Virus record (IMG/VR): IMGVR_UViG_3300030329_001971
Coordinates: 1-29,250 of that record
Reading direction: 5' to 3' (one strand)
From: a virus
Length of the DNA stretch: 29,250 nucleotides
Of this stretch, positions 2,131 to 5,895 are shown one piece after another. Position numbers and translations under genes: made by a program. Every line of letters starts with the position of its first letter. The first letter of the stretch is position 1. A model generated the notes under the pieces. It was not told the origin of the DNA. It did no database searches and saw only the letters and a program-made list of their open reading frames with translations.

Positions 2131-2664
2131 ATGGCAAATCAAAAACTGACAGACAAAACCGAACTTGCCGAACAGGCAGGTAGTGGCGATTTATTAATGG
2201 TGGTGGATGTTTCTGATACTACAGGGAGTAGTGCAGGAACGAGCAAGAAGATGGATTTTAAATATGTAATCCAAACAGATAAATTCTCCCTATCTAATGC
2301 TGAAGTATTGGCGTTAGATAGCACCTCAAAAACTTTGGTAGGTGCTTTGAGTGGCTATATGGTAACTCCAATAAGTGCTACAGTTCTTGTTACTCACGCT
2401 GGTTCAAATGAAAGTTCTAATAAGAATTTGATTTTTGGGTGGGATGACACACAAGATGTTTTGTATTGGGACCATGGAAGCAGGTTTTTTGGTGCAGTAA
2501 GTGGCGATAGGAGTTATGTATTTGGTGGTAATCAAGCATCAGCAGGTGCAGAGGATGGTTCATTACTTAATAAATCTTTTAAGATGTGGGCTTCATCAAC
2601 AGGGTTTAATGGTGGTTGGAGCTGTGATGTTTATTTAACCTATGCTTATACCAAAGTGCTATAA
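2131..2664 (+). CDS. Possible tail fibre or virion surface protein
   Basis: A 177-residue protein. Its N-terminus (LTDKTELAEQAGSGDLLMVV, then DVSDTTGSSAGTSKKMDFKY) has the layout of virion-anchor segments at the start of phage fibre and appendage proteins: a 'what to show' loop followed by a Ser/Thr/Gly-rich stretch. The rest is rich in Gly, Ser and aromatic residues with predicted beta character and ends in an aromatic strand (WSCDVYLTYAYTKVL). It overlaps the next gene by one base (TAATG). A host-recognition role is inferred from composition and position only. Confidence 0.4.
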   Translation: MANQKLTDKTELAEQAGSGDLLMVVDVSDTTGSSAGTSKKMDFKYVIQTDKFSLSNAEVLALDSTSKTLVGALSGYMVTPISATVLVTHAGSNESSNKNLIFGWDDTQDVLYWDHGSRFFGAVSGDRSYVFGGNQASAGAEDGSLLNKSFKMWASSTGFNGGWSCDVYLTYAYTKVL

Positions 2665-3698
2665 TGAAGATAACAGAAAAACCTATATATTTCTTTTTAA
2701 TAGTTGCTATTTTAGCATTAAGCACCTGCAATGCTCAGGACTTTTTTAAATACGCTACTATATATTCTTCAGGTAGTATTAATACAAGTATGGTGGAGGC
2801 TCAAGACTATATAGCTATTAACAAAGGCTATGAAGAAACAACTCAAATAAATGCTTATGATTATAATTTTCAAATCGGAATCCGTAAGGTGGCTCGTTTC
2901 AATTATGAGCAGAAGCTCACGACTTGGTATTATGGCAATGAAAAGAGTGTTGGGGATAATACTACCATTGGTAATAATAATGGTTGGGAGTATTTGCTTA
3001 ATTATTCTTTTATCCGTAATCGTTCTGAAACATTTAATAATAGCGATTTTTGGTTACGCTACTTATCAACTAAATGTGTTACTAAAATACAAGTAAAAAA
3101 TGATGAGAGCAGGGATTTGGAATACATATATTTTGATACAAGATATAGAGTAAATAAAGGAGGCTTTGATTTTACTTTAGGAATGGTGGGCAGACATCAT
3201 CCTGTTTATGGGGTTACACCAATAGAGGATTTTTGGGTAAATGGGGAAAGTTCTTTCCAAGAATTAGCAGAAGATTTTGGTTATTCTACTCAATTTGTAC
3301 AAGGTCAATGGCATTGGTTTAATGATGGCGAATTATTAGCCACTTCAAATGATGAGTTTTTTAAGCATTATTTTGGCTCGGCTATAGCCCAATATAACCA
3401 AGACCAATTAAATGCGTTAGGAAGCGTTACAGAGCTTTCTATGGTAATTGGAACAGCGTATTATTACTATACTAAAGACTTTTGGGTACACGGATGGCTA
3501 AATGTAATGCCTTATCACTATGGATTGGATGATTATTCTTACGAGTATGAGGATGTGCCAACTGACATTGATTTAGGATTAGTAGCAGGATGGAGAATTA
3601 CAAAAAATTTAGGTGTATTTGTAGAGGGTACATATTTAGAGTATTGGGAGAAGCCTATCTATGAGTGCAAATTTGGGTTTAATTATTTAATATTTTAG
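2664..3698 (+). CDS. Secreted, outer-membrane beta-barrel-like protein
   Basis: A 344-residue protein with an N-terminal signal peptide: basic start, hydrophobic core about residues 9-20, and a likely cleavage site after CNA, before Gln-Asp, in flavobacterial style. The mature part is rich in Tyr, Trp and Phe in alternating polar/non-polar strands (for example FDFTLGMVGRHHP and TELSMVIGTAYYYY). It ends FGFNYLIF, with the terminal aromatic residue expected of a BAM-recognised barrel. This suggests delivery to the host outer membrane during infection rather than assembly into the virion. It overlaps the previous gene by one base and is followed after one base by another signal-peptide gene. Function unknown; receptor masking or envelope alteration is possible. 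A Cys in the signal region (LSTC) makes a lipoprotein a weaker alternative. Confidence 0.6.
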   Translation: MKITEKPIYFFLIVAILALSTCNAQDFFKYATIYSSGSINTSMVEAQDYIAINKGYEETTQINAYDYNFQIGIRKVARFNYEQKLTTWYYGNEKSVGDNTTIGNNNGWEYLLNYSFIRNRSETFNNSDFWLRYLSTKCVTKIQVKNDESRDLEYIYFDTRYRVNKGGFDFTLGMVGRHHPVYGVTPIEDFWVNGESSFQELAEDFGYSTQFVQGQWHWFNDGELLATSNDEFFKHYFGSAIAQYNQDQLNALGSVTELSMVIGTAYYYYTKDFWVHGWLNVMPYHYGLDDYSYEYEDVPTDIDLGLVAGWRITKNLGVFVEGTYLEYWEKPIYECKFGFNYLIF

Positions 3699-3699
3699 T

Positions 3700-4182
3700 A
3701 TGAAAAACTTTTTACTATTCTTTTTTATTGTGTGTTATGGTTTTAGTCAAACGAATTGTGAATTATGTGTGGAGCAGAATGGATTTTATTGTGGAGATGA
3801 TGAGAGTAATTGGACACAATATAGTCCTCTTGGTTGTGTACCTAATGGTCTTAATAATCTCTTTTATCTTAATGATGGTTGGTTAGATTGTGTGGATGGA
3901 AGTGATGAGGCAGAGGCTATACCCACTACTTTAGAAGATTGTGCGATATATGACTACAATCCTTGCGATACTATCTATATAGAAACCACAATTATTGATA
4001 CCCTTTATGTTACTGAATACCTTGATTGTAATACAGGATTGCCTTGTGGAAATACAGGCATTTTAGAGTTGCTCCAAAAAACGAAAAATGAAAATAAAAT
4101 ATATAATCTAAATGGAAAGGAGATATACAAGAGAGAAAATGTATATATAGAAGATGGGAAAATTAACTTTAAATTAAAATAA
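3700..4182 (+). CDS. Secreted Cys-rich protein with LDL-receptor class A-like motif and sorting-tail-like C-terminus
   Basis: A 160-residue protein. A signal peptide spans about residues 1-17, followed by Cys 20, 23, 31, 46, 64 and 79. Residues 58-70 read NDGWLDCVDGSDE, the calcium-binding signature of LDL-receptor class A repeats, preceded by the expected FYC and GCVPNG elements. A second Cys-containing strand region (about 86-117) follows. The last 27 residues (IYNLNGKEIYKREN, then VYIEDGKINFKLK) resemble the C-terminal beta-sandwich tail of Bacteroidetes type IX secretion substrates. It lies between the barrel-like gene and the lysis genes. A cell-surface or virion adhesin role is inference. 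Confidence 0.55.
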   Translation: MKNFLLFFFIVCYGFSQTNCELCVEQNGFYCGDDESNWTQYSPLGCVPNGLNNLFYLNDGWLDCVDGSDEAEAIPTTLEDCAIYDYNPCDTIYIETTIIDTLYVTEYLDCNTGLPCGNTGILELLQKTKNENKIYNLNGKEIYKRENVYIEDGKINFKLK

Positions 4183-4185
4183 AAA

Positions 4186-4371
4186 ATGAAAGAATTAATT
4201 TTAAAAATGATAAAATCAAGAAAGTTCTGGTATGGTTTTATAACCTTAATGATGGTACTTTTTTCAGAGAGCTTTGGAATTAGCGAAACAAAAATTAATA
4301 CGCTATCCATAATAGCTGTTGCATTAATAATTGGTCAGGGAATTGCTGACAGAGGATGTAATAAATGTTAA
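4186..4371 (+). CDS. Small two-helix membrane protein, candidate holin
   Basis: A 61-residue protein with a basic amphipathic start (residues 1-13, SRKFW), a hydrophobic segment at about 14-31, a short polar turn (SETKIN) and a second hydrophobic segment at about 39-54, ending in a short Cys-containing tail. Size and topology fit class II-like holins and the small membrane proteins often found in phage lysis cassettes. It starts 3 bases after the previous stop and 3 bases before the next gene. A second holin-like gene lies at 5503, so one of the two may be an antiholin. Confidence 0.5.
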   Translation: MKELILKMIKSRKFWYGFITLMMVLFSESFGISETKINTLSIIAVALIIGQGIADRGCNKC

Positions 4372-4374
4372 ACT

Positions 4375-4665
4375 ATGGCAACAGAGGTATCCGAAAATAG
4401 CAAGTTTGTACTCTCGTTAAAATCTATTGCAACAATTATAGCAATTGTAGCGAGTTTTATCGGTATGTATTATTCATTAAGTATGGAAATAGAAGCAGCA
4501 AAGGAACTACCTAAAGTAGTAATTCCAGACCCTGAAATAACAAGGCAGGAGTTGGATTTAAAATTGGAGCTTATCAGTACGACTGTAATGAGTAATGCAG
4601 AAAAATTAGAAAAAATAGAAACGCAGGTAGAGAAAATAGAGGAGAGAGTTTACGAGCTTAAATGA
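4375..4665 (+). CDS. Single-pass membrane protein with C-terminal coiled coil
   Basis: A 96-residue protein. One transmembrane segment lies at about residues 16-34, then a Pro-rich hinge (PKVVIPDPEI), then a charged heptad-like helix to the end (EKLEKIETQVEKIEERVYEL). A single N-terminal anchor with a long coiled coil, in a lysis cassette, resembles an inner-membrane spanin, but no partner outer-membrane lipoprotein was identified. It overlaps the following gene by 4 bases (ATGA). A small accessory holin or assembly factor is also possible. Confidence 0.4.
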   Translation: MATEVSENSKFVLSLKSIATIIAIVASFIGMYYSLSMEIEAAKELPKVVIPDPEITRQELDLKLELISTTVMSNAEKLEKIETQVEKIEERVYELK

Positions 4666-5039
4666 GATACCTTTTATATATATTATTGTGGGTAATACCA
4701 ATTTGTAGTCCGAGCCAACCGCTTATAACAGAATCTCAATTAACAGATGCTCAATTGTCCAACGAACCAATAGTTGTTGAATTCTGGGCAGATTGGAACG
4801 ACCAAAACAAATGCCATTTCCTTGGCAATCTTAATGATTGTAGGACATACAGAATCTGTATTGTGGACAATCCTGACTTGGCAGATTACTTTGAAATTAG
4901 TGTACTACCCACGATAATAGTTTTCAACAAAAAAGAAGAAATTGTGAGATATAAAGGTAATCTCCTCTTTCAGTTAGATGTTGATAAACAAGAAATTCAA
5001 GCTGTAGTGGACAGCATAATAATCTCTAAATTTAGATAA
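4662..5039 (+). CDS. Secreted thioredoxin-fold protein lacking the CXXC active site
   Basis: A 125-residue protein with a hydrophobic signal at about residues 1-18. Thioredoxin-fold landmarks are visible: the strand PIVVEFWADW (36-45), a middle strand ending in VD, and VLPTIIVF (81-88) holding the conserved cis-Pro 83. At the place of the WCGPC motif the sequence is W-N-D-Q-N (45-49), so both active-site cysteines are Asn. Cys 51, 60 and 66 remain. It is therefore unlikely to be a classical disulphide oxidoreductase. It overlaps the upstream membrane protein (ATGA) and the downstream endolysin (TAATG), which points to co-expression with lysis functions in the periplasm. Confidence 0.55.
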   Translation: MRYLLYILLWVIPICSPSQPLITESQLTDAQLSNEPIVVEFWADWNDQNKCHFLGNLNDCRTYRICIVDNPDLADYFEISVLPTIIVFNKKEEIVRYKGNLLFQLDVDKQEIQAVVDSIIISKFR

Positions 5040-5506
5040 TGGTCTTATCAAAGAATTTTACGCTAAATGAATTCACTAAAAGCGTATCAGCAATTAGAAA
5101 TGGAATAGGTAATGAGCCTACTAAAGAACATATAAGAAATATACAACTATTAGTTAAGTTCGTTCTACAGCCAATTAGAGAGGCTTTAGGGCTTCCAATT
5201 AAAATTACAAGTGGTTATAGGTCAGAAGCATTAAATAAGCTCATAGGAGGCTCTAAAAGAAGCCAACATTGTAAAGGACAAGCAGCAGACATACAATTTA
5301 GGGTGGATGGAGTAATGAACAATAAGGCTATTTGGGATAAAGTATTGGAGTTGGGTTTGCCTTTTGACCAAATGATAAATGAGTTTGATTTTACTTGGAT
5401 TCATATTAGCTATAATCACGAAAAAAACAGGAAGCATTTATTAGAAGCCTATAAAGAAGGTAGTAAAACAAAATACAAATACCATAAAATAGAAAAAGGA
5501 TTATGA
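5039..5506 (+). CDS. Peptidase M15A-type endolysin
   Basis: A 155-residue protein matching the M15A (zinc D-Ala-D-Ala carboxypeptidase-like) fold, which cuts peptide cross-links in peptidoglycan. Visible motifs: ITSGYRS (56-62), then SQHCKGQAADI with zinc ligands His 77 and Asp 84, and WIHISY with the third ligand His 122; Glu 115 is a candidate catalytic residue. The length is that of a stand-alone domain with no cell-wall-binding module and no signal peptide, so release would need a holin. A holin-like gene overlaps its end by 4 bases (ATGA). Confidence 0.85.
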   Translation: MVLSKNFTLNEFTKSVSAIRNGIGNEPTKEHIRNIQLLVKFVLQPIREALGLPIKITSGYRSEALNKLIGGSKRSQHCKGQAADIQFRVDGVMNNKAIWDKVLELGLPFDQMINEFDFTWIHISYNHEKNRKHLLEAYKEGSKTKYKYHKIEKGL

Positions 5507-5895
5507 AAGTATTAGAAAAAATATTCGGAGGTAGTGCTGATAAAGTAATTGATTCTATTGGTAACGCAATAGATGGTATTTCTACATCCAAAGAAGAAAA
5601 ATTAGAAGCTAAAAGGAAAATAAAAGAGCTTGTAGTTAATCATCAAATAGAAATAGAAAAGAATGTTAGCGAAAGATGGAAAGCCGATATGAATAGCGAT
5701 AGTTGGTTGTCTAAAAATGTGCGACCACTTGTATTGGTATTTACAATATCCTGCACAATGCTACTCGTATTTATAGATAGTGGCAGTATCAAATTTGAGG
5801 TAGAAGAAAAATGGACAGACCTGCTTCAACTTACTTTAATAACGATAATTGGTGCTTACTTTGGTGGGCGAAGTGTGGAAAAACTTAAAAAATAA
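5503..5895 (+). CDS. Holin-like protein with two C-terminal membrane segments
   Basis: A 130-residue protein. The N-terminal 60 residues are a charged, helical cytoplasmic part (EEKLEAKRKIKELVVNHQIE). Then comes the family-typical SWLSKNVRPLVLVF entering a membrane segment (about 73-92), a short loop, and a second segment (about 107-123, LTLITIIGAYFGGRS). The arrangement matches the '3TM holin' family common in phages and gene transfer agents. It directly follows the endolysin. The stop codon sits after an A6 run (5887-5892); the -1 frame beyond it leads into the phosphoesterase gene. Confidence 0.7.
   Translation: MKVLEKIFGGSADKVIDSIGNAIDGISTSKEEKLEAKRKIKELVVNHQIEIEKNVSERWKADMNSDSWLSKNVRPLVLVFTISCTMLLVFIDSGSIKFEVEEKWTDLLQLTLITIIGAYFGGRSVEKLKK

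Follow-up and report, generated by a model that had tools for sequence, protein, structure and literature searches.

An LDLa-like, probably secreted protein and a conserved, endolysin-linked envelope gene module in phages assigned to marine Bacteroidota-type hosts

Spanins need lipobox ORFs, and the acidic ligands of an LDLa module follow the spacing 0, 4, 10, 11. How phages without recognisable spanins cross the outer membrane has been raised as a question (PMC6139136); Croceibacter and Bacteroides phages are among those listed there as spanin-less, and an outer-membrane protein acting as o-spanin is suggested as a possibility. According to a second paper, Bacteroidetes phages rely on unimolecular spanins alone (PMC12596118). 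We analysed a 29,250-base stretch of viral DNA (the window), which is a whole virus record. Its portal and terminase have relatives in Nonlabens, Flavobacterium and Bacteroides phages, and on these matches, together with a cellular relative of the head domain described below, we provisionally assign the host to marine Bacteroidota-type bacteria. The cultured Nonlabens phage P12024S (L189:6549-9194) has a related portal and a similar gene order; at the place where the module would be expected it carries a tail-fibre-like gene and a one-TM GAF-like protein.

The LDLa-like protein and its calcium-cage motif

The ORF at 3700..4182 (+ strand) encodes a secreted-looking protein of 160 aa with a head-stalk-tail layout, as judged from the ORF, the family alignment and a codon comparison. 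Translation gives NDGWLDCVDGSDE at residues 58-70 and IYNLNGKEIYKREN...YIEDGKINFKLK at the C-terminus. The first-pass annotation had singled out these two stretches as the calcium-binding core of an LDLa module and a type IX secretion (T9SS) sorting domain, and both were present as quoted. The window has a single copy of the LDLa-type DNA pattern, and 100 shuffles gave none. Comparison of codons with six relatives gave dN/dS values of 0.08-0.15, and the ORF is therefore a constrained gene. A chance motif was ruled out by the shuffles, the invariant residues, the existence of relatives and dN/dS.

Relatives (the LDLA family) were collected by an IMG/VR search, from which the best 80 of 91 were taken, and a motif search added further loci; each collection search covered the best 80 loci, and many contigs are fragments. 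The family comprises at least 126 distinct proteins in IMG/VR contigs, mostly of 157-264 residues, and all DGxxDCxxGxDE-bearing ORFs in these loci belong to it. A search of 50,697 phage records gave no relative, and a literature search for LDLa in phages found no paper with the terms tried. As judged from their sequences, the LDLA proteins are an undescribed viral family. Residues 1-16 (3700..3747, +) form a signal-peptide-like segment by hydropathy, with probable cleavage before the nearly invariant Q17. The N-terminus, MKNFLLFFFIVCYGFSQ, looks typical of such segments by inspection as well as hydropathy, a start of this kind is found throughout the family, and the product is probably exported by Sec.

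The Cys-rich head (residues 17-81; 3748..3942, +) has six invariant cysteines, at positions 20, 23, 31, 46, 64 and 81. Within it lies a putative LDLa-type calcium cage, D59-E70 (3874..3909, +), and D59, G60, W61, D63, C64, D69 and E70 are invariant among 54 LDLA representatives. The acids D59, D63, D69 and E70 stand at exactly the LDLa spacing of 0, 4, 10, 11 and coincide with what we take to be the four acidic calcium ligands of LDLa modules. The cysteine that precedes DG in LDLa is N58 in the phage heads, and the LDLa cysteine pattern (1-3, 2-5, 4-6) was not found, the six head cysteines being arranged otherwise.

The HMM search against PF00057 that had been proposed as a check gave 12.6 bits for the window protein, under the Pfam gathering cut-off of 24.1 bits. 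Of the 54 members, 39 matched at E up to 10, the best of them (E 0.0007, 20.1 bits) again under the cut-off. Only a cellular relative of the head exceeded it, at 34.5 bits and in two copies. This is a 1,138-residue protein of a Crocinitomicaceae MAG (L188:7956-11372) with two tandem LDLa-like heads, repeated domains and a C-terminus that is by eye of the full T9SS type. A search of 395 Bacteroidia genomes found the head domain in one genome only, this same one, and so gives no support to a common host origin. The AF2 model of the phage head has pLDDT below 55, and a Foldseek search with the model returned nothing usable, the confidence of the head being too low. Thus, the LDLa claim held for the acidic ligands, their spacing and a bacterial relative that passes PF00057, but the phage proteins themselves score under the cut-off and lack one cysteine. 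These findings support an LDLa resemblance at the level of the calcium cage, and the head would be expected to bind calcium.

The envelope module and its gene linkage

The gene upstream (2664..3698, +) stops 2 nt before the LDLa-like gene and encodes a 344-aa protein with a signal-peptide-like start. It is predicted to form a 12-strand outer-membrane beta-barrel (AF2 pLDDT 74, pTM 0.66), and its model matched Tsx (Z 15.0), KdgM/NanC (12.8) and OMPLA (about 11). The barrel was not found in 295 bacterial genomes, in a search that had no positive control. In five loci (L081:3908, L094:240, L102:10537, L124:1065 and L161:8973) the barrel has a lipobox-like start (LLISCATPKKCC) and may be lipidated.

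Downstream lies a small holin-like membrane protein of 61 aa (4186..4371, +; phrog_9987 holin, E 0.0004), present in 53 of 117 loci. It is followed by a one-TM protein of 96 aa (4375..4665, +) whose single hydrophobic segment precedes a charged, coiled-coil-like C-terminal part; by inspection its topology is i-spanin-like, and its match to a spanin is weak (phrog_739, E 0.52). Neither the barrel nor the coiled-coil protein had a match in the 50,697 phage records.

The next gene (4662..5039, +) encodes a secreted-looking thioredoxin-family protein of 125 aa, which passes PF00085 (27 bits, cut-off 23.5) and matches a PDB profile (E 4e-10). Where thioredoxins have their active site, this protein has WNDQN (residues 45-49; 4794..4808, +), with NxxN for CxxC. 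N46, N49 and the cis-Pro P83 are invariant in 31 representatives taken from LDLA loci, a set free of the bias of the WNxxN search. NxxN was also found, and CxxC was not, in 160 of 160 distinct sequences; some of these were collected by the WNxxN pattern, and the larger set therefore cannot test the invariance. This viral family has more than 500 relatives in IMG/VR. Searched against the 50,697 phage records, the protein matched ordinary thioredoxins only, and a literature search gave, for the terms tried, no paper on such an NxxN thioredoxin. With the catalytic CxxC replaced throughout by NxxN, thiol redox chemistry would not be expected of this thioredoxin-like family.

We counted linkage in eligible loci only, that is, where the contig was long enough. 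The barrel accompanied LDLA in 113 of 113 such loci, the thioredoxin-like gene in 79 of 79 and the coiled-coil gene in 93 of 103; relatives of the portal (49/76) and of the M15 endolysin (44/75) were less constant. A reciprocal search from the barrel found LDLA in 129 of 130 loci, and one from the thioredoxin-like family found the barrel in 45 of 45 and LDLA in 29 of 45. Barrel, LDLa-like protein, inner-membrane coiled coil and secreted thioredoxin-like protein thus make up a conserved module. This envelope module, overlooked in the first-pass annotation, is the larger finding. Fibre-like or LamG-like genes often precede it. In the sole LDLA-less locus among the 130 (L262:6001-7035) a small membrane protein comes directly after the barrel, and then the coiled-coil gene. 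Upstream of the module in locus L161 (L161:93-7343) lies a gene for a phage protein of 2,417 residues, which resembles a polynucleotide kinase/ATPase at about 1303-1500.

In the window the module runs directly into lysis genes. The start of an M15 peptidase endolysin (5039..5506, +; PF08291 E 7e-21, phrog_894 endolysin E 5e-41) overlaps the stop of the thioredoxin-like gene, and its end overlaps the start of a holin (5503..5895, +; phrog_3427 holin, E 3e-27). Of the 65 loci with sufficient flanking sequence, 63 have an endolysin-type gene on the strand of the module, upstream or downstream of it. These genes belong to three unrelated families: M15 (37), DUF5675 (6) and one (20) whose members are about 200 residues long and match an endolysin in PHROGs; the latter two are called endolysin-type from family names and an HxxxxxxSAGCQ-like motif seen by eye. 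We scanned for lipoboxes with a regular expression that had one positive control (E. coli Lpp). The scan found no lipobox ORF in the window, and thus no outer-membrane lipoprotein of the o-spanin or u-spanin kind; across the collection a lipobox ORF lay near the module in 13 of 175 loci, and in 5 of the 13 it was the barrel itself. If the scan is right, the module loci are at odds with the exclusive use of unimolecular spanins that PMC12596118 gives for Bacteroidetes phages.

Stalk, tail and exchangeable heads

A DT-type stalk (residues about 90-107; 3967..4020, +), among the shortest in the family, connects head and tail. In 122 sequences the stalks span 21-123 residues by the script's boundaries, with 2-8 DT motifs and no K or R, and their length rises with the DT motif count (r 0.94). 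The tail (residues 108-160, about 50 long; 4021..4179, +) comprises DCxTGxPC, a helix, two hairpins (IYNLNGKEI and VYIEDGKINFKLK) and a T9SS-like motif. It is the sole confident region of the AF2 model (pLDDT 80-88), which has a helix and short strands there; the beta-sandwich sorting fold, whose absence was to count against the T9SS claim, is missing. The T9SS sorting-domain models of Pfam and NCBIfam, TIGR04183 included, matched neither the window protein nor any of 54 members. Neither these curated models nor the structure model supported a full T9SS sorting domain.

A profile built from the T9SS tails of eight host genomes was run against 3,678 non-redundant phage ORFs. The top 43 places all went to the LDLA family (best E 0.006); they are held by related sequences and therefore amount to one signal, not 43. 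Residues 122-147 of the window protein align with the profile through the 'iyd.nGk.v' motif. Profile-to-profile comparison of LDLA tails with host T9SS tails gave 31% over 16 columns, against 0.1-0.2% for controls, which points to a common short motif below the detection threshold. The tail was not found in 149 Bacteroidia genomes, and a search of 295 gave short marginal matches only.

Sixteen loci have the barrel and the thioredoxin-like gene without LDLA. In eight of them (L366, L374, L375, L376, L378, L389, L396 and L397) another secreted-looking protein follows the thioredoxin-like gene; two (L377 and L379) end too soon to tell, and six show no such protein. This protein has a second head type (ALT), PDEITWEI...DSYGDGWNGA or a DFNGDAWGGA variant, which is unrelated to the LDLa-like head. 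A DSYGDGWNGA-like head was seen with an LDLA-type tail in LDLA-less modules of L360, L366, L372, L374-L376, L378, L389, L390, L396, L397 and L399. Comparison by hhalign showed the ALT and LDLA tails to be homologous (93.7%, E 2e-7), with controls at 0.4% or less. Thus, with homologous tails on two head types, the tail is the shared element and the head is exchangeable. The ALT tail is closer to the host T9SS motif than the LDLA tail is (81% over 14 columns). Of 119 host-class genomes, 14 encode proteins with ALT-related head domains, and two of the seven such host proteins with a closed C-terminus, a small sample, scored as T9SS tails.

The T9SS-like reading of the C-terminus therefore lost its curated match and its beta-sandwich, and kept a motif found by the T9SS profile and a homologous tail on an unrelated module protein. 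Whether the 160-aa protein reaches the cell surface through the host type IX system, by way of this tail, is a matter of route, compatible with either function considered below. We regard that route as possible but doubtful, and the phage barrel may serve in its place. Use of the type IX system would account for the top rank of the LDLA family among the phage ORFs, for the profile comparisons (ALT tails 81%, LDLA tails 31%, controls 0.1-0.4%) and for the full T9SS-type C-terminus, by eye, of the cellular head relative. Against this, the curated sorting-domain models had no hit, only a helix and short strands are predicted with the first half of the domain missing, and the motif alignment extends over just 14-26 residues.

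Role of the module in infection

The module is found with the endolysin of the given phage, whatever its family, and few spanin-type lipoproteins occur nearby; an end-of-infection role is therefore the most likely. We favour, at a probability of about 0.42, the reading that the envelope module acts at release, with the exported LDLa-like protein as an exchangeable partner at the outer membrane. Such a module may give these phages a so far unrecognised means of rupturing or reshaping the outer membrane of the host. The 160-aa protein would be exported by Sec; its disulfide-rich, LDLa-like head would bind calcium and stand on an acidic stalk, and its short C-terminal tail would dock and hold it at the outer membrane as an exchangeable partner within the conserved module. 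The barrel and the inner-membrane coiled coil would jointly span the envelope, and late in infection this pair would carry out the outer-membrane step of release or make it possible. We counted in favour of such a role the invariant ligand acids and cysteines, the barrel fold, the reciprocal linkage, the common tail on two head types, the gene overlaps that involve endolysin and holin in the window, and the suggestion in PMC6139136 of an outer-membrane protein in the o-spanin role. Counted against it were that a spanin needs no surface head, that LDLA is absent from about one third of thioredoxin-family loci and that late genes often lie near lysis genes regardless. In three large-phage loci (L157, L099 and L268), furthermore, module and holin relative lie on opposite strands. 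The coiled coil was seen only by inspection and through the weak phrog_739 match, and the unimolecular spanins of PMC12596118 also weigh on this side.

The exchangeable heads on one common tail would also fit with a remodelling of the host surface, in which the barrel together with the displayed head would hide or change the receptors of the infected cell, either excluding other phages or sparing progeny adsorption to debris, with heads exchanged to match host or rival surfaces. Phage T5 Llp acts in such a manner. Such a function would also suit the occurrence of ALT-type head domains in host proteins, the fibre-like or LamG-like genes that often precede the module and the strong variation of stalk length. 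The endolysin linkage in 63 of 65 loci speaks against it, and masking offers no obvious part for an inner-membrane coiled coil and a thioredoxin-like protein; we consider it unlikely and prefer the release role. The stalked architecture and the nearby portal, connector and fibre-like genes could instead suggest a fibre or decoration protein of the virion. This is very improbable given the family-wide signal-peptide-like start, the disulfide-rich head and the fixed outer-membrane barrel partner.

The release role could be extended to a lipoprotein-free breach of the outer membrane, in phages of marine Bacteroidota, by the 12-strand barrel and the inner-membrane coiled coil, with a thioredoxin-like protein as redox-dead adaptor and with exchangeable host-derived calcium-binding heads displayed via a minimal T9SS-like tail. 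In this full form the proposal is unlikely. The module provides named, conserved genes with which spanin-less outer-membrane exit in Bacteroidota can be probed, and it indicates that phages carry LDLa-like and other host-type surface heads on one short tail.

The head, the tail, the thioredoxin-like protein and the module as a whole each resemble a described system and depart from it. The phage head shares with LDLa (PF00057) a DG-x2-DC-x-DGSDE core, the four acidic ligands at LDLa spacing and six cysteines, but has N58 for one cysteine, an extra N-terminal cysteine, a last cysteine 11 residues past the core and a Pfam score under the cut-off; its NDG form is also found in glucosidase II beta (PRKCSH-like, PF12999). 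The phage tail is C-terminal like the T9SS type A sorting domain (TIGR04183), with the iyd.nGk.v motif and a basic end, but is about half as long, lacks the N-terminal NP strand motif and a predicted beta-sandwich, and falls below curated detection. The thioredoxin-like protein scores above the PF00085 cut-off and keeps the cis-proline, whereas its signal-peptide-like start and invariant NxxN, not CxxC, set it apart. Like the spanins (Rz/Rz1 and unimolecular), the module adjoins the endolysin and pairs an inner-membrane, coiled-coil-like protein with an outer-membrane partner. That partner, however, is a predicted beta-barrel and not a lipoprotein, save for the five barrels with a lipobox-like start, and the phage module adds two further secreted proteins.
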